Source: Pratylenchus scribneri (Eukaryota; Nematoda; Chromadorea; Rhabditida; Pratylenchidae). From it: a stretch of 64,000 bases of DNA. This document shows, piece by piece, positions 32,029-53,574 of this stretch (its first letter is position 1; each line of letters opens with the position of its first letter). The notes beneath the pieces were generated by a model. That model saw only the letters and a list, made by a program, of their open reading frames with translations. It had not been told where the DNA came from and did not search any database. The stretch covers positions 230,630 through 294,629 of the forward strand of contig JAQSEB010000151.1 in the NCBI GenBank assembly GCA_030063045.1, in the 5' to 3' direction. A program made the position numbers and the translations under genes.

Positions 32029-32060
32029 CCAATTAAATGACCAATTGGTCATTTAATTGG
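32029..32060. repeat. Perfect 32-bp palindrome in the left terminal repeat
   Basis: The half-site ccaattaaatgaccaa is followed directly by its exact reverse complement. The same palindrome occurs in each right-end copy (52062-52093, 52492-52523, 52922-52953), so it is conserved although the surrounding repeat has diverged. It could form a hairpin during replication or bind a dimeric protein; neither is demonstrated. Confidence 0.9.
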
Positions 32061-32166
32061 ACATCATTTAATTATTGATATTTTTGACACAATTTTTAAG
32101 AAAATTAATTGATTACGCTTTTTAAATAAATAATAATAAAATAAATAATAATTTTTTTAATTTTCC

Positions 32167-32250
32167 AAAAATTACCCACCCCGACCGGGAATCGAACCCA
32201 GCCATTCCCAAATCCATAGCCTTCACCTTTCGACTATTCAGCTAATTGGT
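32167..32250 (-). other. tRNA-like segment with Pol III A and B boxes (left end)
   Basis: On the minus strand the T-arm CTGGG-TTCGATT-CCCGG is a perfect 5-bp stem with a 7-nt loop and contains the B-box consensus ggttcgattcc (32188-32198). An A-box-like segment (ttagctgaatagtcgaaagg) lies upstream, and a T5 run follows (32167-32171), as a Pol III terminator would. The acceptor stem is not convincing, so this is a tRNA-derived promoter module rather than a working tRNA. It reads outward, towards the satellite. Confidence 0.65.
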
Positions 32251-32252
32251 GA

Positions 32253-32489
32253 GCGAACATTCAATTTTGCCCATATACCCCATCCATCCAATTCCCTTCC
32301 TTCCCACTGCATCCCCCTCTAGTATTTCGCTCTCTGCATCCTATCTGCATCCTGTCTGTCCTTCAATTATCGAGAATAATTGAGCATTGGGCGGACGGAC
32401 TATCGTGGAGGACCCTAATTATCTCCTAGAGAGAAAATTGATTTATTTCTCCAATTTGACAATAAACAAAATATATTTCTGAAAACAAC
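32253..32489. other. Subterminal non-coding region and 5' leader of first gene
   Basis: No open frame. The C-rich stretch 32270-32370 (repeats of ctgcatcc/tttcgctc type) resembles the subterminal sequence inside the right end. AT-rich DNA next to the first ATG at 32490 probably holds the promoter of the 32490-33471 gene; I see no clear TATA box. Confidence 0.5.
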
Positions 32490-33579: not shown

Positions 33580-34197
33580 ATGTTTTTTTCACCCTTCACT
33601 CTAATTTTGGCTGGAGCCACTGGCTCGGGCAAAACTCAATGGTTGCTGAAACTCCTAAAGCATAGAGATCAATTGATTGATCCCGCACCTCAGAAAGTGC
33701 TCTATTGCTATGGAGAGTTGAATGACGCAATAATGCGCTTGAAAACCGAAGAGGGAGTGGAAACGCATAATGGCGTTCCGGATGCGGAAATGATAAAATC
33801 CATGCCCAAACCTCTTTTGTTAATTTTGGATGATCTGATGTTGGACACAAAAAATGATTTTCTTGACCTCCTTTTTACACGTGGCTCACACAATTGGAAT
33901 ACCAGTGTTGTGTTTGTGACTCAATCCATATTCGGCAAGAATATTCGTACGGCACGAAGTAATGCCCACATACTTGTTTTGATGCGTAGCCCCTCCTCCG
34001 AATTGCAATCAAAAACAATTGGTTCACAGCTCTTTCCCCGAAGATTGAATTATTTTTTGGAAGCATGGACGGATGCAACCCACGAACCCTTTTCATATTT
34101 GGTCATCAATATGCACCCAAGTGCACCGGAATATTTGCGCCTGTCGACCGACATTTTCCCCAGGGAGAAGCAAAAAATTTATCTTCCCATTGATTAA
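33580..34197 (+). CDS. ATP: Polinton genome-packaging ATPase (A32/FtsK-HerA type)
   Basis: Motor that would drive element DNA into preformed capsids. Residues 11-19 are the Walker A loop AGATGSGKT; residues 79-85 are Walker B LLLILDD with paired aspartates at 84-85; VFVTQS near 112-117 fits the sensor strand; RTARSNA downstream offers an arginine finger. The 205-residue length fits Polinton and virophage packaging ATPases. The start at 33580 is the first ATG after the upstream promoter-like motif and leaves the short N-terminal strand before Walker A that the family has. No intron. The frame is intact with all motifs, so the protein could be active. The next gene begins 72 bp downstream after its own TATA box. 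Confidence 0.93.
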   Translation: MFFSPFTLILAGATGSGKTQWLLKLLKHRDQLIDPAPQKVLYCYGELNDAIMRLKTEEGVETHNGVPDAEMIKSMPKPLLLILDDLMLDTKNDFLDLLFTRGSHNWNTSVVFVTQSIFGKNIRTARSNAHILVLMRSPSSELQSKTIGSQLFPRRLNYFLEAWTDATHEPFSYLVINMHPSAPEYLRLSTDIFPREKQKIYLPID

Positions 34198-34628: not shown

Positions 34629-35539
34629 GATACACCCGAAAAATGATCATGATTCCAGAGGCGGAATACCGGACCCTTTTGAATTTGATGACCCGTACAG
34701 GGGATGATTTACATAATGAGAAGGCCAAATTGGATGCAAAAATTGCCACCACATTGGATAATCCCAAATTGAATCCTGACTTGAAACAGAAACGATATAA
34801 TGCCCTCTATAAACAGAGGAGACAAATGAGGGATATGATTGAGAATCGCCCTCAAAAAGTTGTGATCCAAAATCCAAAAACAGTTCCACCAAATGTGGCA
34901 CCCTATTTGGGATTGACCACCACCACAGGTACCACTCTAAATGCAATTGATCCAACAAGTGCCAATGAAGATGAGAGGAAAAAGATTGTCAGACGAGCAT
35001 CCACATTGGGATCGACCTCAGGAAGTGATGAAAAATCTTCCATTTACACATCATCTTCATCTGTACCCAAAGAAGAAGATGGCTCAACACAATATGAATC
35101 GGCTTTAACACCTTCCGAACATGACTATAGAATGCCAGCCAAATCACGTAAAAAGCTAATTGCATTGGTAGAAGCAAATCCACAAAGATTTGGTGTTGCC
35201 CCAAACGGTCAAATCCTGAGCAACAAAAAATTGCGTATCAAAGAGAGCCACTTTAAAGATTCCATAGATTATATTGCTGGCATGCGTGACTCTCCACCTC
35301 GCGGCCATAAATTTTTTGATCAGGCCCTCCGGAGGGATCCAGAAGCGCAAAACATAATCATGGGAAATTTTGCCGGACAATCCGGTCAAGGTAAAAAGCA
35401 TAAAAAGCTAAGATTTGCTACCACCAACACAAAAGTCGGGATTATAAAAACACCAGGTCTTCAGAGAATAGCCCAAGCACCATCTCAAAAACAAAACAAC
35501 AACATCAAATTTAGACCACAATTATGGGCAAAACTCTGA
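34625..35539 (+). CDS. Conserved Polinton protein of unknown function (304 aa)
   Basis: Three parts are visible. Residues 1-75 are a charged helical region beginning with an IPEAEY segment. Residues 85-165 are low-complexity and Thr/Ser-rich. Residues 170-245 are a compact domain with RKKLIALVEANPQRFGV, an NGQIL turn and a HKFFDQALRRDP helix. The C terminus is strongly basic with GQGKKHKKLRF. A protein with an FGV-x-NGQI domain of this kind, encoded near the integrase, is common in Mavericks as I recall it; its role is unknown. The basic tail suggests a DNA- or capsid-associated protein. The start overlaps the previous stop by four bases and its end overlaps the integrase start by 16 bases. 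Confidence 0.6.
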   Translation: MRYTRKMIMIPEAEYRTLLNLMTRTGDDLHNEKAKLDAKIATTLDNPKLNPDLKQKRYNALYKQRRQMRDMIENRPQKVVIQNPKTVPPNVAPYLGLTTTTGTTLNAIDPTSANEDERKKIVRRASTLGSTSGSDEKSSIYTSSSSVPKEEDGSTQYESALTPSEHDYRMPAKSRKKLIALVEANPQRFGVAPNGQILSNKKLRIKESHFKDSIDYIAGMRDSPPRGHKFFDQALRRDPEAQNIIMGNFAGQSGQGKKHKKLRFATTNTKVGIIKTPGLQRIAQAPSQKQNNNIKFRPQLWAKL

Positions 35540-36645
35540 TTAACAATTTGCTGACCACACTTTTTTACAAGCTAAAATCTCCGGCTAGTTATAGTGGAAT
35601 ACAGGCACTTTATACCGAAGCAAAGAAACACGACCCTAAAGTGACTCTGAAAGATGTGGAAACATTTTTGCACAATGAGCGCACATGGACATTGTATAAA
35701 CCTGCCAGAAAGCGCTATAAGCGACTAAAAACCATTCCCTCGGGACTGAACACGGATTGGCAATGCGATTTGTGCATTTTTGATGACTTTAAAGATCAAA
35801 ATGATCAATACCGTTACTTGCTGGTTTGCATTGATGTGTTGAGCCGTAAAATTCATGTGGCGCCTGCAAAGACAAAGCGGAGCGAGGATATGATTGATGC
35901 ATTCAACCGGGTGTTCGCCAAATCTCAGGCTCTCCCACATAAACTCTATTCCGATTCAGGGGTGGAATTTCAGGCCAAAAAAATGTTGGAATATTTCCAG
36001 CAAAAGCAAATTTTGAAGCGTGTAATGTACAGCCCACATTTACATGCTGGAGTGGTGGAACGAGCCAACAAGACAATAAAGCTTCGGCTGTACAAATATT
36101 TTAGCCAAAATAACACTACACGATGGGTGGAAGCTGTTCAAAAAATTGTCGATGGCATAAACAATAGTGTGAATCGAACAATTGGAATGACACCAAACCA
36201 GGTCACCTATGAAAATGCTCAATCACTTTGGCAGAGGCTATATAAGCAGGAAGAAGATGAAGAAGAAAAACAACAATTGCAAAATAAATTTGCGCCTGGA
36301 GATATTGTACGTATAGCTAAAGAGAAGGGCACATTTGGACGATCATTTCATCCAAATTATACGGACGAACTCTTTCGAATCACAAAAGTGAATCCCACCA
36401 ATCCGCCATCCTATAGAATTGAGGATTTGGAAGGTAACAAGATTTTAGGCATTTTTTACGCACCAGATTTGGTCAAAACCACATTGGACACAACACATCG
36501 CATTGCAGAAGTGTTGAGAACACGAAAACGAAAAGGTGTGGTAGAGCATTTTGTACGCTGGGTGGGCTATTCCGACAAGCATAACAGTTGGATCAAAGAC
36601 TCAGATTTGGTTACCACCACCACCACTCCAACAATAACCGAATGA
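35524..36645 (+). CDS. INT: Polinton integrase (retrovirus-like DDE) with chromodomain
   Basis: Inserts the element into host DNA by strand transfer. The 373-residue protein has an N-terminal helical region (1-70), an rve catalytic core (about 75-235) and a C-terminal chromodomain-like part (about 325-365, with VRWVGYSDKHNSW). The catalytic triad is D82 (in WQCD), D144 (in LYSDSGVEF) and E179 (in VVERANK); the 34 residues between D144 and E179 give the DD35E spacing. A basic/acidic linker precedes an SH3-like segment (FAPGDIVRIAKEKG). No frame break or missing catalytic residue is seen. Chromodomains in such integrases are known to guide insertion to methylated histone H3, which fits the neighbouring satellite. 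The start lies inside the previous ORF; the next ORF begins 6 bp after the stop. Confidence 0.95.
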   Translation: MGKTLINNLLTTLFYKLKSPASYSGIQALYTEAKKHDPKVTLKDVETFLHNERTWTLYKPARKRYKRLKTIPSGLNTDWQCDLCIFDDFKDQNDQYRYLLVCIDVLSRKIHVAPAKTKRSEDMIDAFNRVFAKSQALPHKLYSDSGVEFQAKKMLEYFQQKQILKRVMYSPHLHAGVVERANKTIKLRLYKYFSQNNTTRWVEAVQKIVDGINNSVNRTIGMTPNQVTYENAQSLWQRLYKQEEDEEEKQQLQNKFAPGDIVRIAKEKGTFGRSFHPNYTDELFRITKVNPTNPPSYRIEDLEGNKILGIFYAPDLVKTTLDTTHRIAEVLRTRKRKGVVEHFVRWVGYSDKHNSWIKDSDLVTTTTTPTITE

Positions 36646-39011: not shown

Positions 39012-39782
39012 ATGACTACACTTAAAAAAATTGATTCGGAGAGCAGTGCTGGTGTGGATGTTGGTTTGATAAATTTTTTCGAGCTTCCCGCAACAAATGT
39101 GGCCGTAAACCGAACCACAATTAGGCAACTCCTCCCAATTGCGGCACTCTCCCAAGAGGGACCATACACTTTCCGAATGTTTGCCGATAATCAATTCATC
39201 GATTTGGGTCGAACTTATCTCTATTTGGGTTTGTCTCTTCAAAAAAAGTCTGCCGGTAATTGGATTAGCATTTCGGATACGGTGGAGGATGATAAACATG
39301 CCGGAGTGATCAATAATTTGGGCCATAGTTTTGTGAAATCACTAAAGTTGAGCATCAATGGGATTGAATGTTTCGATTCCGGTCCGCTCTATGCTTACCG
39401 CGCGTACATTCTACAAGAGTTGGGCCTATCGCATGAGGTGCGCAATGGTTTGTATGAGGCAAATTGCTATGCCCTAGATGATTCACCACAAAACCATTTT
39501 AATGGTTCAGGATTTCGGAAACGGACGAAACGATTCTCGAATGGACAATTGTGCGAAACCATGGTCAAACTCAATTTTGATTTGGCCAAACAGAATAAGC
39601 TGATGCTAAACAATGCGGATTTGATTTTCACAATCCATCGAAATTCTGATGATTTCCTCCTACTCACACCCGAATATGTGATAAAGGGAGTAGCTCCAGC
39701 TGCAGATACAACCCACCAAAACGCACAAGAATACAGGATAAAGGTGCATGATGTTCAGCTATTTTGGCCTGTATGGATTTGA
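39012..39782 (+). CDS. MCP: Major capsid protein, N-terminal part (frame broken at ~39760-39780)
   Basis: Double-jelly-roll hexon-like capsid protein of Polintons, the main shell building block. This frame covers the first jelly roll: an N-terminal strand region with INFFELPATNVAV, FRMFADNQFIDLGRTYLYLG, the SLKLSINGIECF strands and a YAYRAYILQEL segment that I recognise from Maverick capsid proteins, ending with YRIKVHDVQLF. At that point the frame meets TGA (39780-39782) while the homology continues at once in the next frame (ending 40387). Either a one-base indel has inactivated the gene or the two parts are joined by ribosomal frameshifting; I see no good slippery heptamer. The rest of the gene is well preserved, so the break is recent or an artefact. 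Confidence 0.9.
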   Translation: MTTLKKIDSESSAGVDVGLINFFELPATNVAVNRTTIRQLLPIAALSQEGPYTFRMFADNQFIDLGRTYLYLGLSLQKKSAGNWISISDTVEDDKHAGVINNLGHSFVKSLKLSINGIECFDSGPLYAYRAYILQELGLSHEVRNGLYEANCYALDDSPQNHFNGSGFRKRTKRFSNGQLCETMVKLNFDLAKQNKLMLNNADLIFTIHRNSDDFLLLTPEYVIKGVAPAADTTHQNAQEYRIKVHDVQLFWPVWI

Positions 39783-40387
39783 CCCAATCACTGCAAAATG
39801 CAATTGCAAAACAGCTGGAAAGCACACCGGCTAAATTTCCAATGCGCCGCATTGAGTGCCGAAATGTATACCTCGATAAAGGTCGTATCGATTTGGCTCA
39901 TAACATTTTTGTGAACATACTCCCCCGTCGTCTGATCATTGCCTTCACTGCAGCGGATGCCTTTTCAGGCACCAAAAAGAAATCACCTTTCGAATTTGTG
40001 CCCGCAAATTTGCGCACTCTGAGTGTAGAGGCAAATGGAAACACCTACCCATCGACCCCATATGCTTTGGATTTTGGCAACAATCGTTATCTGCGCACAT
40101 TTGTGGACATGTATGCAGGCTTGGGAATGGACGAAGGCGATCGGACAATGTCCATTAATTTGCAACGATTTTTGAACGGATGGTGCTTCTATGTGATCCC
40201 GATGCAAAGCACACTTGAGGACTATGGCCAAAATTTTGAGATCATTCGCAACGGGACCACATGCATAAAGCTTCACTTTAATGAGCCTATAAATGATTCG
40301 ATGGAAATGCTGGTAATTGGAGAGTTTGATTCCATTCTCTCAATCGATTCGGCACGTGTATTGAGCTCAGATAATAGCGTAGTCTAA
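39752..40387 (+). CDS. MCP: Major capsid protein, C-terminal part (second frame)
   Basis: Continues the double-jelly-roll protein in a frame shifted by one base. The frame is open from 39752 (a TGA sits at 39749). Typical second-domain features are SLQNAIAKQLESTPAKFPMR, the IECRNVYLDKG strand, NIFVNILPRRLIIAF, a DAFSGTKKKSPFEF loop and NLRTLSVEANG. The order and spacing fit Maverick capsids up to the C terminus, where a FNEPINDSMEMLVIGEFDS strand closes the fold. There is no ATG at the junction that would suggest an independent gene (first in-frame ATG at 39773). The protease gene starts 16 bp after its stop. Confidence 0.88.
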   Translation, partial: CSAILACMDLTQSLQNAIAKQLESTPAKFPMRRIECRNVYLDKGRIDLAHNIFVNILPRRLIIAFTAADAFSGTKKKSPFEFVPANLRTLSVEANGNTYPSTPYALDFGNNRYLRTFVDMYAGLGMDEGDRTMSINLQRFLNGWCFYVIPMQSTLEDYGQNFEIIRNGTTCIKLHFNEPINDSMEMLVIGEFDSILSIDSARVLSSDNSVV

Positions 40388-40403: not shown

Positions 40404-40895
40404 ATGGTTGTTCTACTAGAGGGTATGAACGGAAGACAGCTGGAACGAATTTTACGTGCAAACAAGCACACACAAAAATGTTTTTTAGGAGTTTATGCTG
40501 CGGACAATTTGCCCCACTCTAAAAAATATCCCCACTGTTTTGTAGCAAATACCGATCCCCACTATCGGAAAGGCAAACATTGGATTTCCATTTGGGTAGC
40601 AAGCCCTCATAGCGCCGAATATTTTTGCTCTCTGGGTGAACCACCAAATTCAAATTTTCAACAATATTTGAGCGCATTCAAATCGGTAAAAGTAAATAAT
40701 AGACAAATTCAAGCAAATTTGGAAGACACATGCGGTCATTATTGCATTTATTTTTTGACATGTCGTGCCCAGGGCCAAACATTCCCTCAAATTATGCAAA
40801 TCCTTTGGCGTACGCGTGCCATGTCGGATATGCTGGTAAAATTTTTTGTTCACCATTTGAATGTTTCCTCATCAACACCAAACCTGTCTATATAA
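40404..40895 (+). CDS. PRO: Adenain-like capsid maturation cysteine protease
   Basis: Would cleave capsid precursor proteins during virion maturation (adenovirus protease/Ulp1 fold). In the 163-residue protein the family motifs are in order: H59 in GKHWISIW, the AEYFCSLGEPP segment (71-81), Q103 and C110 in the block DTCGHYC. The Q-to-C spacing of seven equals that of the adenovirus enzyme. One oddity: the position after AEYF that usually carries the catalytic Asp/Glu is C75 here, so the acid of the triad appears missing. Length is slightly short but normal for Polintons. The end overlaps the next promoter-like motif (40885). Likely cotranscribed with the capsid gene, 16 bp upstream. Confidence 0.88.
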   Translation: MVVLLEGMNGRQLERILRANKHTQKCFLGVYAADNLPHSKKYPHCFVANTDPHYRKGKHWISIWVASPHSAEYFCSLGEPPNSNFQQYLSAFKSVKVNNRQIQANLEDTCGHYCIYFLTCRAQGQTFPQIMQILWRTRAMSDMLVKFFVHHLNVSSSTPNLSI

Positions 40896-40898
40896 AAG
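40885..40898 (+). promoter_or_regulatory. TATA promoter TGTCTATATAAAAG before the membrane-protein gene
   Basis: Third exact GTCTATATAAA copy. It overlaps the last codons of the protease and lies 38 bp before the ATG at 40936, which supports that start rather than the in-frame ATG at 40861 inside the protease gene. Confidence 0.6.
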
Positions 40899-40935
40899 AT
40901 CAAAAAAAAAATTTTCAAAAATAAAAATCACAAAA

Positions 40936-41901
40936 ATGATGAACACAAATATTGTTATTATTATTATAATCATTGCATTATTATTTTTCGCCATCACACC
41001 TTTATTTGCATTCATAATTGGCCATAGAGCGTATAGATTGCTCGAGGGCCAAACAATTATGGATCAAAACAATAGTTTTGATCAGCGCTATTTGATCCAT
41101 TCTAAGAGGAATAGACCCTTTGTGTTTCCATACAATAATAGAGCTGTTTGTATTTTGGATACTCAAAATGGCAATGGCCATATTCAAATCCATTTGGAAT
41201 CTGCCTATACATTCCATGCATCTGCCCCAAGAATATTGGAACATAAACCGGGTTCTTCGAGCAAATTTCATGCCTGTTTTGAGCATGACCACCATTCATT
41301 TCTAATCTATCAAAATGGTGAGAACAATAATGAAACCCATATGATCAGAAGCGGAAATGAAAAGGTGTTCAAATTTTTTGACGAATATGTGCGATTCATA
41401 TTTGATCATCTACAATCCCGATTAAACATTCAAATTGATGATCAATGGTTGTATAGAATAAATCTCGATGCACTCATTTCCAATTTTTGGTCTCCCTCCA
41501 TACAATGGGGTAGTAAAAATGCCCGTTTACTCTTGGAACCCGTTACGCGATTGCCCGAAAATCAAGACGGAATGATTGTGAACGGAATGCTCTATTGGAT
41601 CCATGGGGATACAATTTACACAAGACATTTGCAATTGGAACAAGAGAGGCTGTTCGTATCAAAAATTGGGGCCAACAAATTTGGATTCATTCCATTTCCT
41701 CTTTCCACCATTGATGATCCTATTTTGATAGCATCCTCTTCCACTAATATACCCCACAATGCCAGTTTACATAATTGTATTGCCGTATATTTGGCCATCA
41801 TAAAGGCATGCATAATTGCCCTTTTGGTTTGGTTGTATCGTAAACCAATTCGGGAAAGTATTCGAAAAAAATTTAAAAAATCCTCTACATCTTCTATCGT
41901 C

Positions 41902-41960
<59 letters not shown>

Positions 41961-42081
41961 TTCCGATGATGCGGGACAATTTGAGCTCTCTGGGGGCATT
42001 TATCCAACAGCACCTCTCTTTTTGGAAAATTTCCAAAAAATGAATAATGACAATAAAAATTTGAGAGATTTAGAGAAATAG
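40936..42081 (+). CDS. Two-helix membrane glycoprotein candidate of the Polinton
   Basis: 381 residues, no recognised family. Residues about 5-28 form a very hydrophobic helix (six isoleucines in a row, then ALLFFAITPLFAFIIG) that is a signal peptide or signal anchor. Residues about 30-278 form a probable outside domain with several N-x-S/T sites (QNNS, NNET, PHNAS) and few cysteines. Residues about 281-301 (CIAVYLAIIKACIIALLVWLY) are a second membrane helix, followed by a basic stop-transfer stretch RKPIRESIRKKFKK. A run of about 19 asparagines lies in the tail, coded by an AAT microsatellite. Position at the end of the capsid block suggests an envelope or entry/egress protein, but this is inference from topology only. 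The start follows its own TATA box. Confidence 0.65.
41902..41958 (+). repeat. AAT microsatellite coding poly-asparagine
   Basis: About 19 perfect AAT triplets in frame inside the cytoplasmic tail of the membrane protein. A likely site of length polymorphism. Confidence 0.95.
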
Positions 42082-42333: not shown

Positions 42334-42364
42334 CTAAACATTTTAGGTTTCTGAACTCATTTTG

Positions 42365-42745
42365 ATGCTTGGCACCCATTTTTTCCATCAACATTTAACT
42401 CAAGAGCAATTTTTCCGAAACTTTTCCACAAATCCAGAGGCCCAACTTCCAATTCCCATCCATCTTTGTGCACATCCAATCCCCACTTATTTGCGGCATA
42501 TAAAAGAGTGTGAGATCATCGATTTTGTACGACCCTACGGTGATCACATAGATTCACTCATTTGCATCTGCGTGCCAACAATCATCGATCCACCCGTCTA
42601 TTCGCTCAATCCATTGGAACTTTTTGAGGAAATTCAAAATTGCTGGCACGAATATATTTATTTGCCACTCGATCAAATTCAAATATGCCCATACAACGAG
42701 GATCATCAAATCTGCCAATATCGAAGAAGTCATCGCCTCCAATGA
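42365..42745 (+). CDS. Hypothetical 126-aa ORF overlapping the PAZ gene start
   Basis: I do not recognise it. The frame opens at the first ATG after the TATA box and has balanced composition: an N-terminal THFFHQHLTQEQFF helix, IPIHLCAHPIPTYLRH, then DSLICICVPTIIDPPVYSL. It ends at TGA 42745, 61 bp inside the PAZ frame, in a different frame. Two readings are possible: an independent overlapping protein, or the N-terminal part of the PAZ protein joined by splicing or frameshifting. A phase-compatible GT-AG pair does exist near 42730-42761, but the intron would be only about 32 bp, shorter than the others here. Confidence 0.4.
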   Translation: MLGTHFFHQHLTQEQFFRNFSTNPEAQLPIPIHLCAHPIPTYLRHIKECEIIDFVRPYGDHIDSLICICVPTIIDPPVYSLNPLELFEEIQNCWHEYIYLPLDQIQICPYNEDHQICQYRRSHRLQ

Positions 42746-43383
42746 AACGACAAAGAGCAGCATCATTAATCAAACATCTATGTGAATATAACAAAATTTA
42801 TAAAGATGGAGATGGAAGCAAATTGGCCGAAGCGTTTCGAAAAAATGGCCGAAAAATCCAGGATTATGTTGGCCAATTGGATTTGCGCACCAATCACCTC
42901 CGCCCTGAATGGAAGAATTTTTCAATTCAAGCTGCATTCATCACCCGCAAATCAGCCCATGCTCTAATGGCCTTCAAAGGGGAAATGCGTGTTTCGGTCC
43001 AACAATTCTACTTTTTACGACATCGGCTCCGTCTTCGCTTTCCGCAACTCCCGTGTGTGGCTGTCAAGGGAGGCAATTGCCATGTGTCCTTCTACCCATT
43101 GGAAGTGATCAATGTGATCATACCAGACAAAAATGAACAAGAGGAAGAAGAAGAAGAAAAGGTATAATGATTTTGATTTTAGCATTTTTCATAAATTTTT
43201 CCAAAAATTTAGATGTCAATGTCCACCACTGCCGATGCCACAACTCAAACCGACGACGAAAATGGCTATGATAATGATGATGATGCTGAGGAAGAAGAGG
43301 ACAGTACAGGCTTTGATGAGGGAGAAGAATTTCGACAAGAGGAAGCAAAGATTGTAATCAAAATGGCAATGATGACATTTTAA
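42685..43383 (+). CDS. PAZ-domain protein (Argonaute-type small-RNA 3'-end binding)
   Basis: Stand-alone PAZ domain with an acidic tail. Two exons, 42685-43161 and 43213-43383, intron 51 bp (gtataa...atttag), phase 0, 215 residues. Residues about 27-146 follow Argonaute PAZ domains: KLAEAFRKNGRKIQDYVGQL, an ITRKSAHALMAF strand, then SVQQFYFLRHRLRLRFPQLP and CV...FYPLEVINVI at 104-144, which aligns without gaps to the conserved block of human AGO2 around H316 and the YPHLPC motif. H113 matches AGO2 H316; the Y311 position is F108. No PIWI, MID or N domain accompanies it, so it cannot slice. The C-terminal exon is Asp/Glu-rich. PAZ domains hold the 2-nt 3' end of small RNAs; a free PAZ could sequester host guide RNAs or interfere with Dicer or Argonaute. 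Function is inference; family call is firm. Confidence 0.82.
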
Positions 43384-43660
43384 AACACACAAAAGAATCA
43401 ATATCACTATTGTAAACAACTATTTAAATTGGATAAATTTGATTGGGTTTGTGCCCAATTCGTAAAATTAAAAATCAACAAATGCTTTATGCTTTCTAAA
43501 TGCTAAGGTTAACAATGTTTTTTTCAACAAAAATCATTTCAAAAAATCATTCATTCATCATCATCATTCATTGATGGTGCCGGAATCCATTTACCATCGG
43601 CGCTGATGGATGACAATGCAAATGGACTGCATAGATTTCGCAGCAAAATTTCCTGCAATT
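43384..43660. other. Intergenic gap between convergent PAZ and helicase genes
   Basis: AT-rich, no coding frame. Contains a catcatcattcattcatcatcatc simple repeat (about 43545-43572). Serves as the 3' end of both convergent genes. Confidence 0.6.
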
Positions 43661-45198
43661 TTATTCAAATTTGGGATGGGTGGAATTTTTCAATTCTTCC
43701 CTCTCTACCTCTTGGGCATTTTCAACAAAAATGCGCAAGCCAATCATCCGTCGAAGTCGGCTAAAGGCGGTATAACACATTCCCTCCGCAAAAAGGAAAC
43801 TTTTTGCTGGCATATAGATTCCCAATCGATCCACTGTTTGAGATTGGCCTTTGTGGATGGTTGTGGAGAATGCCAAACGTATTGGAAATTGCATTCTCCG
43901 AATGACTCCATCTTTTATTTGCTGATTCATTGCCTGTCGATAAATTTTGTGTTGCTTTCCATTGAGGTCCTCACAGATTAGTGCATTGCTTTTGTCATTT
44001 GATTTATAGATTAATCGTGTACCATTTGCCAAACCATTTTCAACACTGACATTTTTCAACAGCATGACAATGGCCCCACTTTTCAGCTAATGTTGAAAAA
44101 ATTGGGTTTTTCTAACCATTTTCAAAAAAAATACGCACCTTCAATCTTTTTGGTGGTATTTTGGACAATTCCTCTTCCGGTGGCGTTTCCATTCCCTTGG
44201 CCAACGTGTCATTGGCTTCAAACCATTCTTCCACCCCATCAATCATGTTCAAAGCAATTTCATTTACATAATTGACCCCTCGATTTGTGGGTGTAATGAT
44301 CAGTCCTTCATTCTCCTTCATTTCCTCTCCAAAGACAAATTTGATCAATTTTTCAATGTTGTTGACAGTGTTTTGCTGCGGAATTTTAACCCACTTCACT
44401 TGTCCAGTGCCAATCTATATGAATTTTTTGCACAAATTTAATTAAAAAAATAATCAAAAAAATTTACATTACGAAGCCATTGATTGAAATCCGGATCGCC
44501 TGATTGGCGCATTTGCTCTTTCAATTCAACATGGTAAAATTGTTTCATGATATTGGCAGAGGCATAGATGCTATTTTTATTTCCTGTTGGAGGCACAAGT
44601 TGCATTCTATCGCCACCAAGGAGTACTGATTTGCCACCAAATGGTTGATCATTTTCGCAATATTTTCGCAACTTTTGATCAACGCAGTGAAGGACTTTGA
44701 CATCCAGCATGGAAACCTCATCAAAAATTAGGATTTTAGCCTTTTTGATTGCTTCAGATGGGGCTTTGTCGTTGGCATCCGGATTGGTGGCGCAAAAAAT
44801 TGATAAGCCAAATGTGGAATGGACAGTTGAACATTTTTCAATCGTGGTCGCGGCAATCCCAGTGGATGCACAAATCACAGCGCCAATGCCCTATTTTATT
44901 ATTTTTTTTGAAAAATCTGCCCAGAAATGAATACCATAATTTCAGCTGCTTTACAAATCTTCTTGTACAAATGGGTTTTTCCAGTGCCTGCCTCGCCATG
45001 TAGCATCACCAGTAAAGGTTTCGTTTTTTCCTTGTCTTCTTGGCCACCATTTTTTTCTTCCATCAACTTTCCAAACACCAATGAAAAGACACGTAGTTGA
45101 TCGGGATTCAAATCGCCAATCAATGCTTGAACTTCAGCGGGGAATGTCATCGTCGGCTCGACCTCAATCATTGGTGGCTCCAAACATTGGCCCATCAT
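43661..45198 (-). CDS. Pif1/RecD-like SF1B DNA helicase, 4 exons
   Basis: 5'-3' DNA helicase. Exons in transcription order: 45198-44935, 44890-44468, 44414-44139, 44086-43661; introns 44-53 bp, all phase 0, giving 462 residues. Motifs in order: Q-like NPDQ (31-34), Walker A GEAGTGKT (68-75), Ia STGIAAT (98-104), II FDEVSML (D145, E146), III GGDRMQL (180-186), IV LKEQMRQ, then in exon 4 SGAIVMLLKN, V TTIHKGQSQTVDRL and VI YTAFSRLRR. These are the Pif1 family motifs and none is missing. It is more compact than cellular Pif1. In this element, which lacks a visible polymerase B, it is the only replication enzyme. A TTTCAATTTAG acceptor sits 12 nt before the ATG (45212-45211), usable for trans-splicing. 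Confidence 0.88.
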
Positions 45199-45256
45199 TT
45201 TTGATCCAAACTAAATTGAAAATGAAAATTTTCATTCATCATTTGTTATTATTCTT

Positions 45257-45586
45257 TCATTTTGGTTCTTTCATTTCTTCATCCGCCGCTGCGCCCTTCT
45301 TGCCAATTGCTTTGCTGCTCGATGATTCTTGTTGTTGTTGGCCAGCCACTTCATCGGCTTTTGCGGTGGATGGTGATATTCCCAAAAAGCGCATTTTGTA
45401 TGAGAGCGATTTATTTGTTGCACGGCAATTGGGGCAGAGGTGCAATTCCACTTTGCATCCTTCCTGTTCACCCAGGTCCACAACTTTACAAAGGTTGCGA
45501 TCTTCGCGGCAAATTGTAAAGGGACCAATAAGGTGATGGAGCTGGATGAGTGTGAAATCCGATTTGGGGTTATTTTTTTCGGCCAT
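45257..45586 (-). CDS. Small cysteine-motif protein upstream of the helicase
   Basis: About 109 residues from the ATG at 45586 (MAEKNNPKSDF); an in-frame ATG at 45667 would give 136. The family is not recognised. It has CREDRNLC and HLCPNCRATNK, a CPxC pair with nearby cysteines that could bind zinc, then a Gln/Ser/Ala-rich end with EEMKEP. Its stop is 58 bp before the helicase start, on the same strand, with a splice-acceptor-like sequence between; this looks like a two-gene operon. Alternatively it is a 5' exon of the helicase, but the only donor available (gtggct) is poor. Confidence 0.5.
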   Translation of the reverse strand: MAEKNNPKSDFTLIQLHHLIGPFTICREDRNLCKVVDLGEQEGCKVELHLCPNCRATNKSLSYKMRFLGISPSTAKADEVAGQQQQESSSSKAIGKKGAAADEEMKEPK

Positions 45587-45667
45587 ATTTATTATAGGTG
45601 AGGTGGTATTGAAAACGTTTGAATTTGGATTATTGCTTGGGGAAAATAAATGAAAAATCGCATACAA

Positions 45668-46326
45668 ATTTGAAATTAATATGGAGAATTTTATAAATGA
45701 TTGCTAATCGGTTTTTTACGAATATGGAAATGATTGGCTCTCGGGCTGGATAATTAATTGACCCCAAAAAATCCAAAATTATTCATATTCCAGAGAAAAA
45801 TGAGAATGTCTATGTGTTGCACACACATTTCTTGATGAAAATTATAGATGATTGTTTTTGATGATCGCGTTCCTTCATTTTTTCCTTGTGTGGATATGTG
45901 AATTTTCTTGTTTTTATATTCCCTTCTATTAATCTAATGGAAAAAAATATTCCACAAATTCACTTTGACTGACTGAGTGCGCAAGGCAATTATTACATTG
46001 GAGCCTGAAATTTGAAGGAATAATTTTATTCCTCCTTTCAATTATGTTAATGGACTAAAATTCCCTTTGAATAAGTGCGTGTGCAAGGCAATTACCGTGT
46101 TGGTCGCACACAACTTTTTACTATGAAAGAATAATAATATAGTATATTTTGTGTGTTCATTTATAGCAAACAAAAATATTTTTGAGCAAAAATACGTATA
46201 TTTGAATTTTGATGGAACCTTTTTCTCCCCCATTTTTAAATCAAATTGGTAGGTTCAAATTGATGAATTTTTTATTAGCCCCCTTCACCAGTACAACAAT
46301 GTGCCCTTTGTCTGTCCCGGGCAGTA
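45668..46326. promoter_or_regulatory. Divergent intergenic region between helicase operon and zinc gene
   Basis: No convincing coding frame. A motif gtgcgcaaggcaattattac at about 45978 returns as gtgtgcaaggcaattaccgt at about 46079, about 100 bp apart, as a paired regulatory site might. Otherwise AT-rich. It must hold promoters for the minus-strand helicase operon and the plus-strand zinc gene. Confidence 0.4.
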
Positions 46327-46749
46327 ATGGCACCAACGAGCTTGGTAACTCCTGCTTTCTATTGTCCTCACAAATTTTGTGAAGCGCACGCTTCGACAAT
46401 CTTTTTGGATGCACATAGAAAGCAGGAGTTTGGTTCGATCGACACTGGAACCCCTCAATCACTCCATTACAAATGCCCAGTGTGCGGATTGCTGTTTATT
46501 GTAAGCACACTAATTTTTTTGAAATATTTCTGGTCAAATTTAGAGCTGGATTTATTGGTCAGAGCCCATACGCATTTACTATGCAAATGTGGAACAGCAG
46601 CAGCAACTCCAAGTCAGTTTAATTAAATAATTCAATGTTTTAATAAATGTTTTTAGCCATCTTCATCATCATCCACAAAACTTACTCCACTCTACACAAT
46701 TGTTGAGGAACAACAAGAACAAAAGAGTGAAGGCAAAATTCAAAAATGA
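46327..46749 (+). CDS. Small putative zinc-binding protein, 3 exons
   Basis: Exons 46327-46500, 46544-46612 and 46657-46749 join in phase 0 to give 111 residues; introns are 43-44 bp with gtaagc and gtcagt donors and TTTAG acceptors. Cysteine pairs FYCPHKFCEAH (13-21) and YKCPVCG (49-53) resemble a zinc ribbon or treble clef. An aromatic segment ISWIYWSEPIRIYY follows, then a Gln/Ser/Glu-rich tail. I do not recognise the family; transcription-factor-like or adaptor roles are possible. An unspliced reading would stop early with an unlikely hydrophobic tail, which favours the spliced form. The antisense frame here is a shadow. Confidence 0.55.
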
Positions 46750-46933
46750 AGACAAAATTGGCCGAATAAATGATATTTTAAAATCTTGTTGAAAAAACAG
46801 AAAAACTTTTTTACCTGATTAATTGAATACAAAAACATTTGATTTTTAGGTTTATTAAAATGCAAAAATAATTTGAAAAAATGCTAGTGAATAAGAATTC
46901 AATCCATGAATTATTATATTTTGTTAGGAAATT

Positions 46934-48050
46934 TTAAATATAGGGAGTGTCATAAATAACTTCATCATCATCTCGATTTTGATTTGTCGAATTTGGAAAT
47001 GAAATTACAGCATATGGCATTTCCATTGGTGGTGGTGGTGGCATTTCCTGCTGTTCAGGAATAGGAGGCAATTCCCGTCTGGACCATTCTCCTCCCAAAG
47101 GCAATTGTGGATTAGGCATTTGTTGCTGTTGTAGTTGCCGAATTAAAGCTGCCGGTGGTAAACCCTGGTTTAAAATTGAGCAACGTGGAATAATTGGCAA
47201 TGCAGATTGAAGACCCATTTTCCATTTTCCAATGAAAAAGCCAATCTGAAATTCCCATAATTTTTAATGGCAAAAAAATTGTGACAACCAGAAAAAAGAA
47301 AATGGCAAATAAAATTGCAGCCAAAATTAGGGCCTGTAATTATATCCAAAAATCAAAAAAAATATTCTGAAAAAATCTACCCAAGAGGGTATTGCCAAAA
47401 GCCAATTTTGATGATTCCCATTCATTTCTTCCTCCAAATTTTGTTCGTGACATGACATTTTTGTAGTAGTCGATCCCATTTTCAGTGTTGTAATTGATGA
47501 TGATGATGGAATTGTTGTTGTTGTGCCCAATGTAATTTTATTGTCTGGAATTGTTGTTGTTGTAGTTGATTCAATTTTGTTGTCTTCTTCATCTTCGCTT
47601 GAATCTCCAAATTTTATTAATTTTTGCGTTGTTGTTGTTTTTACTGTTGATGATGATGATGATGATGAAGGATTTGTATTGGCCATTGCTGCTTGAATAC
47701 CATTGCATGGACAAAATTCCACAACTAAATGGATTTTAAATATTTTTGAGGCAAAATCATATGAAATTTGCCTAACATTACAATTGTGTAATTTAATTGA
47801 ATATTTCATTTTTAATGTCATAATAATTTAATTGTTATTTTTATTTGTTTAAAATACTATATTCATATTCATATGGTGCTTAATCAGTTGTCCAAAAATT
47901 ACCCTCATCCAAATTGATAAAATTTTGGTCACAAATGGCAAAACCAGTGTAACCGAAAAGACGGAAACATGTTGAATTATTTTTGACCAAATAGAGTTGG
48001 GTATGAATGGAATGGAAAAGCATAATTGTGAATAATATAAAAAGCTTCAT
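46934..48050 (-). CDS. Mucin-like type I membrane protein with proline/tyrosine tail, 4 exons
   Basis: Exons in order: 48050-47903, 47724-47381, 47333-47289, 47245-46934, phases 1, 0, 0, giving 282 residues. Residues 1-18 (MKLFILFTIMLFHSIHTQ) are a clear signal peptide. A short Cys-containing segment follows (TCFRLF, AICDQ, EFCPCNG), then a Ser/Thr-rich, probably O-glycosylated stalk (about 66-140). Residues 165-186 are one membrane helix that is complete only after splicing exons 3 and 4 (ILAAILFAIFFFLIGFFIG). The 96-residue tail has LPPIPEQQEMPPPPP and VIYDTPY, resembling SH3/WW-ligand and tyrosine motifs that recruit trafficking or budding factors. It could be a virion surface protein; no homologue is recognised. 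The 171-bp first intron is the least certain junction. Confidence 0.6.
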
Positions 48051-48379
48051 TTTATTATTATTATCAATAATTTGTGATTGGAATGATGGATGTGAATCAA
48101 TAATAGAGGAGAAGATAAAAAGCTTACAATAGATTAAATCAACGCTGCCATAAAGCCATTCAATTCGTGTCGACTAGGAATGGAGTGATCAAATTCCATG
48201 GAATATAATAATAAAGAAAAGTAAATAGTAATTATGGAGCAGCAAATTAAACATTTTAAATTATCACATTTATTTATCATTTACATATATATATTTTGGC
48301 TTTATCCAATTTATTGCTATAATTTTGAATGTTCTAGCACTAGTTTGAACATATAATAATTCTTTTTGCCATCAAATTA
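48051..48379. promoter_or_regulatory. Upstream region of the type I membrane protein gene
   Basis: AT-rich, no coding frame. Contains the promoter of the minus-strand gene by position; no clear TATA box found. Confidence 0.35.
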
Positions 48380-48660
48380 GCCTACTAGGGCATTTGACTC
48401 CTATATGCATTCTTCTCAGCCACCCGCCTAGTAGGTGTTTTGACTCGTATATGCATTCCTCTCAGCCACCAGCCTAGCAGGGCAATTCCCTCCTATATGC
48501 ATTCTCCTCAGCCACCAGGCTAGCAGGGCATTTTCCTCCTATATGCATTCTCCTCAGCCACCAGGCTAGCAGGGTATTTTCCTCCTATATCCATTCTCAG
48601 CCACCAGCCTAGTAGGGCATTTTCCTCCTATATACTTTCTTCTCAGCCAGACTCAGTAAG
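48380..48660 (+). repeat. 46-bp minisatellite, about six copies
   Basis: Units of about 46 bp built on ctcagccaccaggctagcag and tcctatatgcattctc; copies at 48494 and 48540 are exactly 46 bp apart. The same unit appears near the right end (51655-51800) and inside each right terminal repeat. Confidence 0.9.
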
Positions 48661-48681
48661 AGGATGGACCGACCATCCAGT

Positions 48682-48712
48682 TCCTCTTTTCTCTCAATGA
48701 GAGAAAAAGGGG
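48682..48712. repeat. Hairpin inverted repeat (cctcttttctctc/gagagaaaaagg)
   Basis: Near-perfect stem of about 12 bp with a 3-nt loop. A perfect version lies at 51607-51635, and the flanks (ttctcagccattcgcctagtagga) are shared, so the two loci are copies of one subterminal segment. The plus-strand frame 48664-48948 across it is mostly repeat-derived and I do not call it. Confidence 0.7.
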
Positions 48713-48760
48713 AATTGGTCGTATCTCCTTTCTCAGCCATTCGCCTAGTAGGATCTTTCG

Positions 48761-49054
48761 CACGAATCTCTTCCTACTCCCTCATCATATTTTTTCTCTG
48801 CTTGCCACAGAGATTTGTGGCTATTTTCTTCTCAATGGTCATCATTTGTTTGTTGTTTTGGTCAGTCAATGTCCAAATAGAATGCGCGCGCAAATTTTTG
48901 TGTTCCTATGGTTTGACTCAAAACCATCCAACAATGTCCAATCGATGACCCCGTACATTTATTTTGCCAAATTATTCATTTCTGCTTATTGTAATATCAT
49001 GAATTTCCAATATTTTGATTATTTTTGATTGTTTTTAGAAAATTAATTTAAAAA
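48761..49054. promoter_or_regulatory. Upstream region of the JmjC gene with splice-acceptor-like site
   Basis: No supported coding frame. A T-rich acceptor (attgtttttag, ending about 49038) lies 17 nt before the JmjC ATG and could serve as an SL trans-splice site or a 5'UTR intron end. Confidence 0.4.
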
Positions 49055-50933
49055 ATGTCTTCAAAATTCGATATTTCTGCATTCGTCAAAGCCAACGCGC
49101 AAAAGGGAATGCAAAATGGATTTGTAATAATGAAAGAATTGCCAGCAAAGCCGCCAAAGGTCACAATGGAAAAGTTATTGTCGAAAAAGCTGGACAATTT
49201 AATGTAAGTTTTTTTGCTTAAATGAATAAAATATTTCTTATCCGTTCAGAAAAATCTCATTTGAACGAACAAATGTGGAAGGGGCATATCACCGGATCGT
49301 GCAAAAGATGCCTGGCCAACGAACAATTGGAGAATTTCAAGCAGGCCTTTGGCATCAAACACCCTTTTGTTTGGATGGTTGGTTAAAAATCTTAAAAAAA
49401 TATTTTTAAAGATTAAAGAGTGAAATTAAAATATGGATAGATATTAAGATAAAATTCATTGTTTTAAATTTATTTATCAGATATTGATATTAATTTTATT
49501 TAAATTGGTTCAGAAATGATGAATTTTGGTGGTTCATTTTTGATAATAATAAATTTAAAATTAGAATCTATCAAATGAAAAATTTATTAATTGATGTTTT
49601 CTTGTGCATGAATTAAATTGGCCAATTTTTAGATTTTTGGCGGCTCATGCACCTTGAAGATCGTGAGCAACCCTTGCTTTATCCGCAAGATTGCAATGGA
49701 AGCATATATTCCTATCACGAGCCGTTCAATTTGCACCTGAAAGGCTTGCCAAATTTGCTTGGCAGCATCTGGGAACGATGGAATGGCATCAACAAGCCGA
49801 TGCTCTACGTTGGTGCCAAAAACACATGTTCATCCTTGCATTTGGAGGACATGATGTTTTTTTCCATATTCTACCTCCATTATGGAGCTGTAAGTTTATG
49901 ATTAAAATTGAATTTTTATGAAATGTAATTTAGTTTATTTTAATTAATTAATAATTTTTAAAATTTTACAGAATAAAATATGGCTTGTTGTGGCACCAGC
50001 GGATTGCTGGAAATTGATTGATGCTTTGGTCGCCGCCTTTCCCGAGGAGGCCGAAGCTTGTGCCGAATTCTACAGGCACAAGTCAATCAATGTGACTGAA
50101 GAATTTCTTCGGCGCCATGACATCAGGTAAATAATTACTCATTTATAATTTTTTAAAATGATTTTTTTTCAGATATGAAAGGGTGATCCAGAAGCCAGGG
50201 CAAATTATGATCAGTAAGTTTATCATTTAAAATGGGTAATAATAATATTTTAATTTGGAAAGAATTCTGATTTTCATTTGGGAAAATTTTTGTTTTTTTT
50301 TTTTGAAAATATGTAAAATTGATTTTTGAATGAATTTTGATTTTGGAAATTTTCTCAAATAATATTGGTTAAAATTTTTAATTTATGCTCAATTTTTTAG
50401 CCTTTCCCTTGGCCTTTCATCAAGTGATGAATGAAGGCTTCAACATTGGCGAAGCCGTCAACTTTGCCACAGAAATGTGGCTGCCATTTGCACATGTGGC
50501 CGGCAAATGCCAATGCAAGGACCAGGCACTGAGTATATGGTTTGATTGGGAGAAAGCATTTGGAGTTAAGAAAATTGAGGTGGAAAATAAAAGGAAATAT
50601 TGTGAGAGCATTTTGGCTCAATATAATAATAATGATTCTTCCACTTCCGCCCCTTTTTCATCATCTTCTCTCCCCTCTTCCTCTTCATCATCTGTCCCTT
50701 CTTCCTCCTCTTCATCTGTTCCTCAATCATCTTTCCCATCCACATCGGCACTTCCACAAAATCCTCCATTCTATTGTGCCGAATGTAAATACCAATATGG
50801 CACTCGCAATGAATATACTAGGCATTTGCAAACTAGTTCAATTCATTGTAAATCAAATTATGAATGTAATATTTGTGGCTTTACCTTTACACGCCCAGAT
50901 TCGCTGACTAAACATTTAAAAACCCATAAATAA
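49055..50933 (+). CDS. KDM4-like JmjC histone demethylase with two C2H2 zinc fingers
   Basis: Six exons: 49055-49203, 49250-49377, 49633-49889, 49972-50126, 50173-50213, 50401-50933; all phases fit, 420 residues. The JmjC domain (about 105-290) carries the iron ligands H162, E164 and H250, 2-oxoglutarate residues Y118 and K180, cage residue Y151, and the KDM4-specific zinc site C208, H214, C280, C282. Spacings H162-H250 (88), E164-C208 (44) and H250-C280 (30) equal those of human KDM4A. The Asn198 position is F172 and the S288 position is A262, as in KDM4D. No JmjN domain is visible. A Ser-rich linker (323-362) leads to two C2H2 fingers (369-391 and 399-419). KDM4 enzymes remove methyl groups from H3K9me3 and H3K36me3; here the fingers would target it. 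A natural candidate for protecting the element from heterochromatin. Confidence 0.85.
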
Positions 50934-51584: not shown

Positions 51585-51734
51585 GCCTGGAGGATGGCCA
51601 GCAGTTCCCCTTTTCTCTCAATGAGAGAAAAGGGGAATTTGGCGCATCACCATTCTTCTCAGCCATTCGCCTAGTAGGACATTTGACTCGTAGATCCATT
51701 CCTCTCAGCCACCCGCCTAGTAGGTGTTTTCCCT
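51585..51734 (+). repeat. Subterminal repeats: perfect hairpin and 46-bp minisatellite units
   Basis: 51607-51635 is a perfect 13-bp stem (cccctttTCTCTC type) with a 3-nt loop. It is followed by two or three degenerate copies of the ctcagccacccgcctagtagg unit seen at 48380-48660. Confidence 0.75.
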
Positions 51735-51880
51735 CCTATATCCATTCCTCTCAGCCACCCGCCTAGTAGGGCATTTCCCTCCTATTTCGTTTCTTCTCAG
51801 CCAGTTGGAATGAGACGTATGTGTGAGGGAAGGGAATTTAGGAGGGAAAATATATGGGTGAGAATATTTATTCCTTCATC

Positions 51881-51960
51881 AATTGACCGAATAGTCGAAA
51901 GGTGAAGGCGATGGATTGGGGGTGGCTGGGTTCGATTCCCGGTCGGGATGGGTAATTTTT
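51881..51960 (+). other. tRNA-like Pol III module, right-end copy 1
   Basis: Same structure as the left-end module: GAC-GTC D-arm-like hairpin, perfect T-arm with B box ggttcgattcc, T5 terminator. Reads outward. Confidence 0.6.
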
Positions 51961-52310
51961 GGAAAATTATAAAAATTATTATTTATTAATTGAAAATGTA
52001 TGTCAAAAATTGCTATTTAATTAAAATTGTGTCAAACAAATATCAATTAATTAAATGATGTCCAATTAAATGACCAATTGGTCATTTAATTGGCCAATCA
52101 TGCGGATAGTATAGGGCTTGTGAATTATTGATTTTTTCGCTCCAAAATTGGACTAAATGCTGCTCCTATATCCATTCCTCTCAGCCACCCGCCTAGTAGG
52201 GCATTTCCCTCCTATTTCGTTTCTTCTCAGCCAGTTGGAATGAGACGTATGTGTGAGGGAAGGGAATTTAGGAGGGAAAATATATGGGTGAGAATATTTA
52301 TTCCTTCATC

Positions 52311-52390
52311 AATTGACCGAATAGTCGAAAGGTGAAGGCGATGGATTGGGGGTGGCTGGGTTCGATTCCCGGTCGGGATGGGTAATTTTT
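52311..52390 (+). other. tRNA-like Pol III module, right-end copy 2
   Basis: Identical to copy 1, offset by 430 bp. Confidence 0.6.
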
Positions 52391-52740
52391 GGAAAATTAT
52401 AAAAATTATTATTTATTAATTGAAAATGTATGTCAAAAATTGCTATTTAATTAAAATTGTGTCAAACAAATATCAATTAATTAAATGATGTCCAATTAAA
52501 TGACCAATTGGTCATTTAATTGGCCAATCATGCGGATAGGATAGGGCTTGTGAATTATTGATTTTTTCGCTCCAAAATTGGACTAAATGCTGCTCCTATA
52601 TCCATTCCTCTCAGCCACCCGCCTAGTAGGGCATTTCCCTCCTATTTCGTTTCTTCTCAGCCAGTTGGAATGAGACGTATGTGTGAGGGAAGGGAATTTA
52701 GGAGGGAAAATATATGGGTGAGAATATTTATTCCTTCATC

Positions 52741-52820
52741 AATTGACCGAATAGTCGAAAGGTGAAGGCGATGGATTGGGGGTGGCTGGGTTCGATTCCC
52801 GGTCGGGATGGGTAATTTTT
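52741..52820 (+). other. tRNA-like Pol III module, right-end copy 3
   Basis: D-arm-like gaccgaatagtc at 52745-52756, B box at 52789-52799, terminator T5 at 52816-52820. Reads towards the flanking BEL/Pao fragment. Confidence 0.6.
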
Positions 52821-53024
52821 GGAAAATTATAAAAATTATTATTTATTAAGTGAAAATGTATGTCAAAAATTGCTATTTAATTAAAATTGTGTCAAACAAA
52901 TATCAATTAATTAAATGATGTCCAATTAAATGACCAATTGGTCATTTAATTGGCCAATCATGCGGATAGGATAGGGCTTGTGAATTATTGATTTTTTCGC
53001 TCCAAAATTGGACTAAATGCTGCT

Positions 53025-53574
53025 ATCATTACGTGAAGAAGCATTTGAGCTCTCACAAAATTATGGGTCAAATCCGAGAAAAACTGAATCATCTCAAAAT
53101 AATTTCAACAGAAATAATAATAATAATTCGCAACGAAGATTCATTAAATATGATAACCAAAATGAAAGTCATTTGATGACAATGGCAACGATGACGGATC
53201 AAAATAAAAATTATTCGAATACTTATAATGAAAATAATAAAAAACATTTTAAGCAAAATAATTCTGATAATAAAAAGAAATATACCTGTATATTCGATGG
53301 TTCTGAAAACCACTCTAGCAAAAATTGCCCAAAATACACAGATTATGAAGCAAGAAGCAAACGATTAAGTGAATTAAAAAGATGCGAACGATGTTTAACT
53401 ATCGGACACAATATAAAATCGTGTTCTAAAAAAGATGTTAAATGTAAAAATTGTGAAAAACCAGGACATTATCAATTAATATGTAGAAACTTATGGAGAA
53501 CAAATAAAAATACGAATGAAAATAAAATAAACAATAACAATGATCAAGAATCAAACAATCCAAATCAAGATTAA
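53025..53574 (+). pseudogene. gag: BEL/Pao retrotransposon gag fragment (zinc-knuckle region)
   Basis: An open frame runs out of the Polinton end (its apparent ATG at 53017 belongs to the terminal repeat) and codes an Asn-rich stretch, then a cysteine-rich block: CIFDGSENHSSKNCPKY, RCERCLTIGHNIKSC and KCKNCEKPGHYQLIC. This triple CxxC/H series with RLSELKRCERC between is typical of the C-terminal part of BEL/Pao Gag. The N-terminal Gag and the whole pol region are missing, so this is a truncated relic. Its 5' side was replaced by the Polinton end. The frame then stops at 53572-53574. Confidence 0.75.

Follow-up and report, generated by a model that had tools for sequence, protein, structure and literature searches.

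Among described systems, the closest to the one analysed here include the nematode Polintons (Mavericks), reportedly described by Jeong et al. 2023, the isolated PAZ domains of Argonaute proteins known from human and Drosophila structures, and the viral suppressors of RNA silencing, which hold small interfering RNAs (siRNAs) and whose familiar examples have unrelated folds. The locus considered here lies in a 64,000-nucleotide stretch of the genome of the nematode Pratylenchus scribneri (C151:230630-294629, hereafter the window; the searched assembly comprises 227 Mb in 276 contigs), where a Polinton carries both a gene for a stand-alone PAZ domain and a JmjC gene with C2H2 zinc fingers. Counter-silencing precedents exist for DNA methylation, in several lineages of fungal DNA transposons with a captured TET/JBP dioxygenase thought to erase a silencing mark (PMC12730594), and for chromatin, in the endogenized giant viruses of Amoebidium, whose KDM4-like genes encode the JmjC domain only and were suggested by the authors to counter host chromatin (PMC11244446). 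Judged by titles and abstract openings among the matches listed, with much subscription literature lying outside, the literature searched contained no PAZ gene in Polintons and no precedent for a Polinton PAZ or a small-RNA half of such a system, and for Polintons together with JmjC it yielded only the giant-virus case of PMC11244446. PAZ, Argonaute, Meloidogyne, demethylase and RNA interference (RNAi) are not mentioned in PMC11071308.

The elements of this genome share with nematode Polintons the terminal inverted repeats, an rve integrase, an A32-like ATPase and, in a sister element on C21, PolB, together with a putative adenain-like protease and genes that are capsid-like by position and conservation. 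Three features set them apart from the known nematode Polintons: most integrase places have a PAZ-only gene nearby, the window-type clade has a PIF1-like helicase, and some copies carry a JmjC-C2H2 gene; we know of no description of nematode Polintons that includes any of these three genes. Small-RNA capture is proposed in common with the viral suppressors of RNA silencing, the domain in question here being Argonaute's own. To our knowledge, a mobile-element family in which Argonaute's domain for binding small-RNA ends is a conserved gene would represent a new way to counter RNAi. As for the second gene, the fungal transposons have in common with this element a transposon-carried dioxygenase thought to erase a silencing mark, but they target DNA methylation, use another dioxygenase family and, as described, have no small-RNA component (PMC12730594). 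The Amoebidium viruses likewise represent the capture of a KDM4-type JmjC gene without PHD and Tudor domains by a DNA virus, whereas here the carriers are Polintons, the gene has C2H2 fingers and there is a PAZ partner (PMC11244446).

A preliminary description, made from the sequence alone, had placed both genes within one set of terminal repeats, and they do lie between repeats at 31957-32307 and 51821-53024. The features that carry the argument, in window positions, are as follows.

31957..32307, plus strand: left terminal inverted repeat, from comparison with the right repeat
42685..43383, plus strand: PAZ-only gene (exon 1 42685-43161, predicted intron 43162-43212, exon 2 43213-43383)
48379..48649, no strand: 46-bp tandem repeats left of the JmjC gene
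49055..50933, plus strand: JmjN/JmjC gene, KDM4-like, with several predicted exons
50760..50930, plus strand: two C2H2 zinc fingers ending the JmjC gene (zf-C2H2 2.8e-10)
51650..51803, no strand: 46-bp tandem repeats right of the JmjC gene
51821..53024, minus strand: right terminal inverted repeat, three tandem 430-bp copies, from repeat comparison

The PAZ gene, whose range is a start-to-stop gene model with predicted splice sites, encodes a protein of 160 residues with an acidic tail. Its assignment as a stand-alone Argonaute-type PAZ holds by both profile and fold: the PAZ fold is predicted with good confidence by AlphaFold2, and Foldseek matches it to the RNA-bound PAZ of human Argonaute; in the best six rows, 113-121 residues align with Argonaute PAZ structures at 2.1-3.0 A and 21-25% identity. 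In the top two PDB entries, 8thq and 1si2, a PAZ domain on its own is complexed with RNA or an siRNA-like duplex, so the 3' end of an RNA can be held by PAZ alone. Since the gene stops at 43383, without MID and PIWI domains, and is followed by a PIF1-like gene on the opposite strand, the product is referred to as a PAZ-only protein and not as an Argonaute. It shares with the isolated Argonaute domains the fold and the His of the R-H pair, and differs from Argonaute PAZ in the missing MID and PIWI, the acidic tail, the low identity and its place in a mobile element. The His after Arg, aligned with the R-H pair of AGO2, which we take to be R315/H316, the pair mutated in PDB entry 11gj, is kept in at least 90% of 19 family members; this pocket His is among the best-kept positions, as are the core stretches 'PC' and 'P.E'. 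Several pocket aromatics are kept or swapped and some are changed, the assignment of residues to the pocket being in part presumed. A TGA considered as a recoding signal is not one, since it falls in an out-of-frame stretch ahead of the PAZ start.

The safest new statement is that Polintons of this genome encode the PAZ-only protein as one of their conserved genes. Genome searches gave at least 138 places with Pfam PAZ and at least 150 with the window protein (at least 212 when merged), and the integrase set comprised 110 places (111 matches, two being pieces of one gene). A PAZ lies within 15 kb of at least 80 of the 110 integrase places and at least 99 of the 150 protease places, compared with about 3% expected if PAZ places were evenly spread. 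Among the 212 PAZ places listed, 108 are no more than 20 kb from an integrase or protease place, and 49 of the other 104 are no more than 15 kb from a capsid-like gene (the query coming from another lineage), giving a total of 157 within 15-20 kb of one of these three genes; the last 55 comprise, among others, Argonaute-like places of the host and seven long open frames with a PAZ stretch. Window-clade integrases, which are at least 90% identical, have a PAZ at 17 of 19 places, C43 and C153 being without one among the PAZ places listed.

Seven PAZ families were read in context, namely the window type (clade A) and six further stand-alone ones. Clade B was represented by 13 copies, all adjoined by a protease gene (13/13), and the C87 family has an ATPase and an integrase nearby. 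Protease and capsid-like genes accompany the C155, C60 and C63 families, the last also with PolB. The C93 family, whose PAZ frame is interrupted, has an ATPase, an integrase and a PolB match under the cut-off; the Polinton with this PAZ stretch also holds a thymidine kinase gene (C93:9500-13500, Pfam TK 6.4e-37). On C63, three PAZ copies at 11769, 31914 and 52058 are spaced by 20,145 and 20,144 bp, and the capsid-like genes have the same spacing; this array consists of Polintons arranged head-to-tail.

PAZ is under purifying selection in both families tested. The ratio of nonsynonymous to synonymous substitution rates (dN/dS) lies between 0.12 and 0.42 for 65 of the 66 clade-A pairs (from 12 of the 17 copies; the remaining pair is below 55% identity) and between 0.04 and 0.27 for 19 of the 21 clade-B pairs (from 7 of the 13 copies; two pairs are saturated). 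Outside this genome 18 PAZ relatives were found; the named one, a protein of 210 residues from Heterodera trifolii, groups with the C87 family in the PAZ tree (support 100/97). There were none in phage records, and six pattern matches in viral contigs included no relative. A single origin of the mobile PAZ is neither rejected nor shown by the tree, which has 28 rows and long branches; the approximately unbiased test gave p values of 0.22 and 0.27 with the BEL/Pao row out of frame and 0.43 with that frame right.

That row comes from a second kind of mobile element. At C223:247472 a PAZ stretch scores above the cut-off (Pfam 9.4e-7). The open frame that contains it runs to about 3,300 codons (C223:242500-252500) and has, upstream of PAZ, integrase domains and a Phlebovirus_G2-like envelope (1.4e-55), a layout that is presumably that of envelope-bearing BEL/Pao retroelements. 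Six further PAZ places are in long frames of 785-3606 codons. Should these six prove alike, PAZ would be present in two unrelated types of mobile element within the same genome, and this would favour a host-directed function over a role in replication.

The JmjC gene is an optional Polinton partner of PAZ, located near the right terminal repeat. Its range is again a start-to-stop gene model, and the call of a JmjC protein with C2H2 fingers is borne out by exon matches to KDM4A, KDM4D and yeast Rph1 and by the zinc-finger profile. No Pfam match was found for the PHD and Tudor domains of animal KDM4A-C, the last exon holding C2H2 fingers, and for this reason the gene is called KDM4-like and not a KDM4 member; in combining JmjC and C2H2 fingers it resembles yeast Rph1 and plant REF6. 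Exon 3 has no relative in the protein database, and within the genome it matched 11 places, five of them clear (the window, C126, C192, C110 and C63:476050), these five copies all matching exons 1, 3, 4 and 6 and the finger stretch. In the window, C126, C192 and C110 the gene lies downstream of PAZ on the same strand, at 13.8-14.1 kb except for the window, where the distance is 6.9 kb and a 6.7-kb block is missing; C63:476050 has no PAZ nearby among the places listed. A different JmjC gene stands at the corresponding position in C21, 14.2 kb from PAZ and beside the terminal repeat. Terminal-repeat-like DNA follows the JmjC gene in the three copies read there (window, C21, C110). The C13 element has PAZ and terminal-repeat-like DNA and no JmjC in the stretch read, and the stretch read on C16 has neither such DNA nor a JmjC gene.

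The pairing of PAZ and JmjC, which the preliminary description had presented as a candidate module, stands in part: it recurs in five related Polintons, one with the different JmjC gene, and is not fixed, JmjC being optional. That description had also envisaged relatives lacking both genes and decaying neutrally, or domain searches recovering neither PAZ nor JmjC; instead, the pair recurs, both domains were recovered, and the proposed dN/dS check indicates purifying selection on PAZ and on the measurable JmjC exons in relatives. The 46-bp repeats that flank the JmjC gene are related to sequence beside the right terminal repeat, and such flanking repeats could let the JmjC slot be exchanged by recombination. 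A further JmjC gene with a C2H2 finger is found at C60:137390. In the same region (C60:130000-139117), an open reading frame without a Pfam match looks, by eye only, like a part of the block that separates PIF1 from PolB in C21.

In the JmjC gene, the H..E of exon 3 and the H, C and C of the last exon are invariant in the five window-type copies, and the C and H of 'C....RHK' in exon 4 are invariant across seven rows, C21 and C60 included; aligned with KDM4A, Rph1 and KDM4D, these positions are those we take to be Fe and Zn ligands. Measurable JmjC exons are under purifying selection in relatives, with a pooled-exon dN/dS of 0.143 between C63 and C110. Between C126 and C192 there are about 6 nonsynonymous and 14 synonymous differences in the JmjC exons, against 16 and 8 in the zinc-finger stretch (Fisher p 0.033, from one pair and rounded counts).

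Taken together, these results are best read as a Polinton in which PAZ, acting on small-RNA 3' ends, and JmjC, acting on silencing methyl marks, would jointly blunt RNA-guided silencing, a reading to which we assign a probability of roughly 0.55. As a lone PAZ is able to hold RNA 3' ends, small-RNA capture is its simplest function, and removal of methyl marks is the simplest one for JmjC. The PAZ protein would bind the 3' ends of host small RNAs, serving as a sink or decoy, while the JmjC protein, as a putative active demethylase of lysine 9 of histone H3, would strip silencing methyl marks from the chromatin of the element, to whose DNA it may be aimed by its C2H2 fingers. PAZ would then be the standing defence of these Polintons, to which JmjC, near the right end, would be an exchangeable addition. 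In Meloidogyne incognita, trimethylation of lysine 9 of histone H3 (H3K9me3) is enriched on every transposon order but short interspersed nuclear elements (SINE) (PMC8685519); if the present host is like M. incognita, the same mark would be expected on its transposon orders except SINE. A broader version, in which PAZ is a hallmark RNAi suppressor of nematode Polintons, the BEL/Pao-like element employs it likewise and some of the Polintons have in addition an exchangeable, zinc-finger-guided eraser of the KDM4 type, is held tentatively, at somewhat short of even odds. If the joint reading is true, silencing is fought at both the small RNA and the chromatin mark. The proposed role of PAZ is directly testable with a 160-residue protein, and the retention of large virus-like transposons by nematodes despite RNA-guided silencing would become an experimental question.

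Several observations weigh against this proposal. JmjC was found beside only 5 of the 17 clade-A PAZ copies, and where KDM4A has the Asn of its 'SIN' motif, presumably a 2-oxoglutarate contact, every one of the five window-type JmjC copies has Phe ('SIF' or 'SLF'). The pooled JmjC dN/dS is saturated in 5 of 6 pairs. For the zinc fingers it is 0.435 in the one measurable pair, a value below 1 that indicates weaker constraint and does not support positive selection, and between the window and the other copies the first exon shows as much divergence as the finger stretch (33-42% against 27-40%). In the PAZ pocket, Tyr or Phe stands where AGO2 has the Leu that precedes PLE, and the Tyr of the KRKY stretch is not kept. 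PolB is missing from the window copy itself, where the capsid-like gene is also split; in the same clade there are copies that retain PAZ, PolB and an intact capsid-like frame. Finally, the frequency of PAZ in these Polintons is high enough for a part in replication or packaging to be conceivable.

This last point leads to an explanation that gives PAZ no silencing role and makes it part of the Polinton life cycle, for example as a protein that grips the 3' ends of the element's DNA or RNA while these are replicated or packaged. Its frequency near hallmark genes (the protease places above), its neighbourhood with capsid-like, protease and membrane-protein genes in several lineages and the capacity of PAZ folds to hold 3' ends would all fit; up to 30 of the 110 integrase places and up to 51 of the 150 protease places, on the other hand, have no PAZ within 15 kb, and the BEL/Pao-like retroelement with PAZ replicates quite differently, which leaves this explanation unlikely. 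Rather improbable as well is the view that only PAZ matters for silencing escape, JmjC being a non-catalytic zinc-finger regulator or a passenger: the Asn-to-Phe change in five of five copies and the C13 element, which keeps PAZ with no JmjC found there, are what it would predict, and it is opposed by the invariant Fe and Zn ligand positions, by the low dN/dS between C63 and C110 and by the different JmjC gene of C21, which retains the Asn ('SIN') and adjoins its terminal repeat. It is very doubtful that PAZ is a dominant-negative fragment competing for Argonaute partners by protein contact and not by holding RNA, for even though the Argonaute PAZ match spans the whole domain, including the helical part ahead of the barrel, the pocket His and the 'PC' and 'P.E' core are among the best-kept positions, as expected where RNA binding is kept. 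Chance acquisition of decayed host fragments, to which only the damage in the window copy (no PolB, split capsid-like gene) would lend itself, is most improbable given the recurrence across diverged lineages and the purifying selection on PAZ.

The element itself is a Polinton/Maverick, as seen from its long terminal inverted repeats (about 83% identity between left and right), rve integrase and A32-like ATPase and from PolB in its lineage: the sister on C21, whose integrase is 99% identical to that of the window, has a DNA_pol_B_2 match of 2e-8. The remaining features in the window are the following.

33580..34197, plus strand: A32-like packaging ATPase (Pox_A32 1.1e-6, above the Pfam cut-off)
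35524..36645, plus strand: rve integrase (8.7e-10) with a near-threshold chromodomain (Chromo 2.9e-5, just under the cut-off)
39012..40387, plus strand: capsid-like gene, in two overlapping frames in the window copy, from position and cross-lineage conservation
40404..40895, plus strand: adenain-like protease, weak match (Peptidase_C5 0.005, under the cut-off)
40861..42081, plus strand: membrane protein, conserved next to PAZ in clade A
42362..42745, plus strand: conserved open reading frame that overlaps, in a different frame, the start of PAZ and is kept in clade A
43661..45201, minus strand: PIF1-like helicase gene in pieces (PIF1 1.1e-21, Pif1_2B 5.9e-5; first piece by identity to C21)
45229..45233, no strand: junction where the 6.7-kb C21 block with PolB is missing, from comparison with C21

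The label 'capsid-like' reflects position and cross-lineage conservation only, Pfam giving no match for window:39012-39782 and no capsid match for the C63 relative. For the open reading frame at 42362-42745, a GTSF1-like identity was rejected, the CHHC finger reaching only 0.0075 (under the cut-off) and its His missing in several relatives.

Compared with C21:2845400-2857000, the window lacks about 6.7 kb between 45229 and 45233, and the corresponding C21 block holds PolB. Identity to C21 is 99.5% over the 583 bp left of this junction and 91% over 3 kb to its right, a jump that suggests recombination between elements; the window copy is a deletion derivative of a PolB-bearing lineage. The capsid-like gene is one open frame of 459-485 codons at 16 of 18 clade places, the exceptions being the window and C164.

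At the outer ends of the element no matching short repeat was found as a target-site duplication, the right end being rearranged into three repeat copies. A 170-bp satellite array of 188 copies occupies window 1-31957 and stops at the left terminal repeat, and GC content rises from about 24% to 38-42% at 32 kb of the window. The right flank, unlike the left, is non-satellite DNA, and right of the element, at 53017-53574, there is an open reading frame with zinc-knuckle-like cysteines that looks gag-like by eye.

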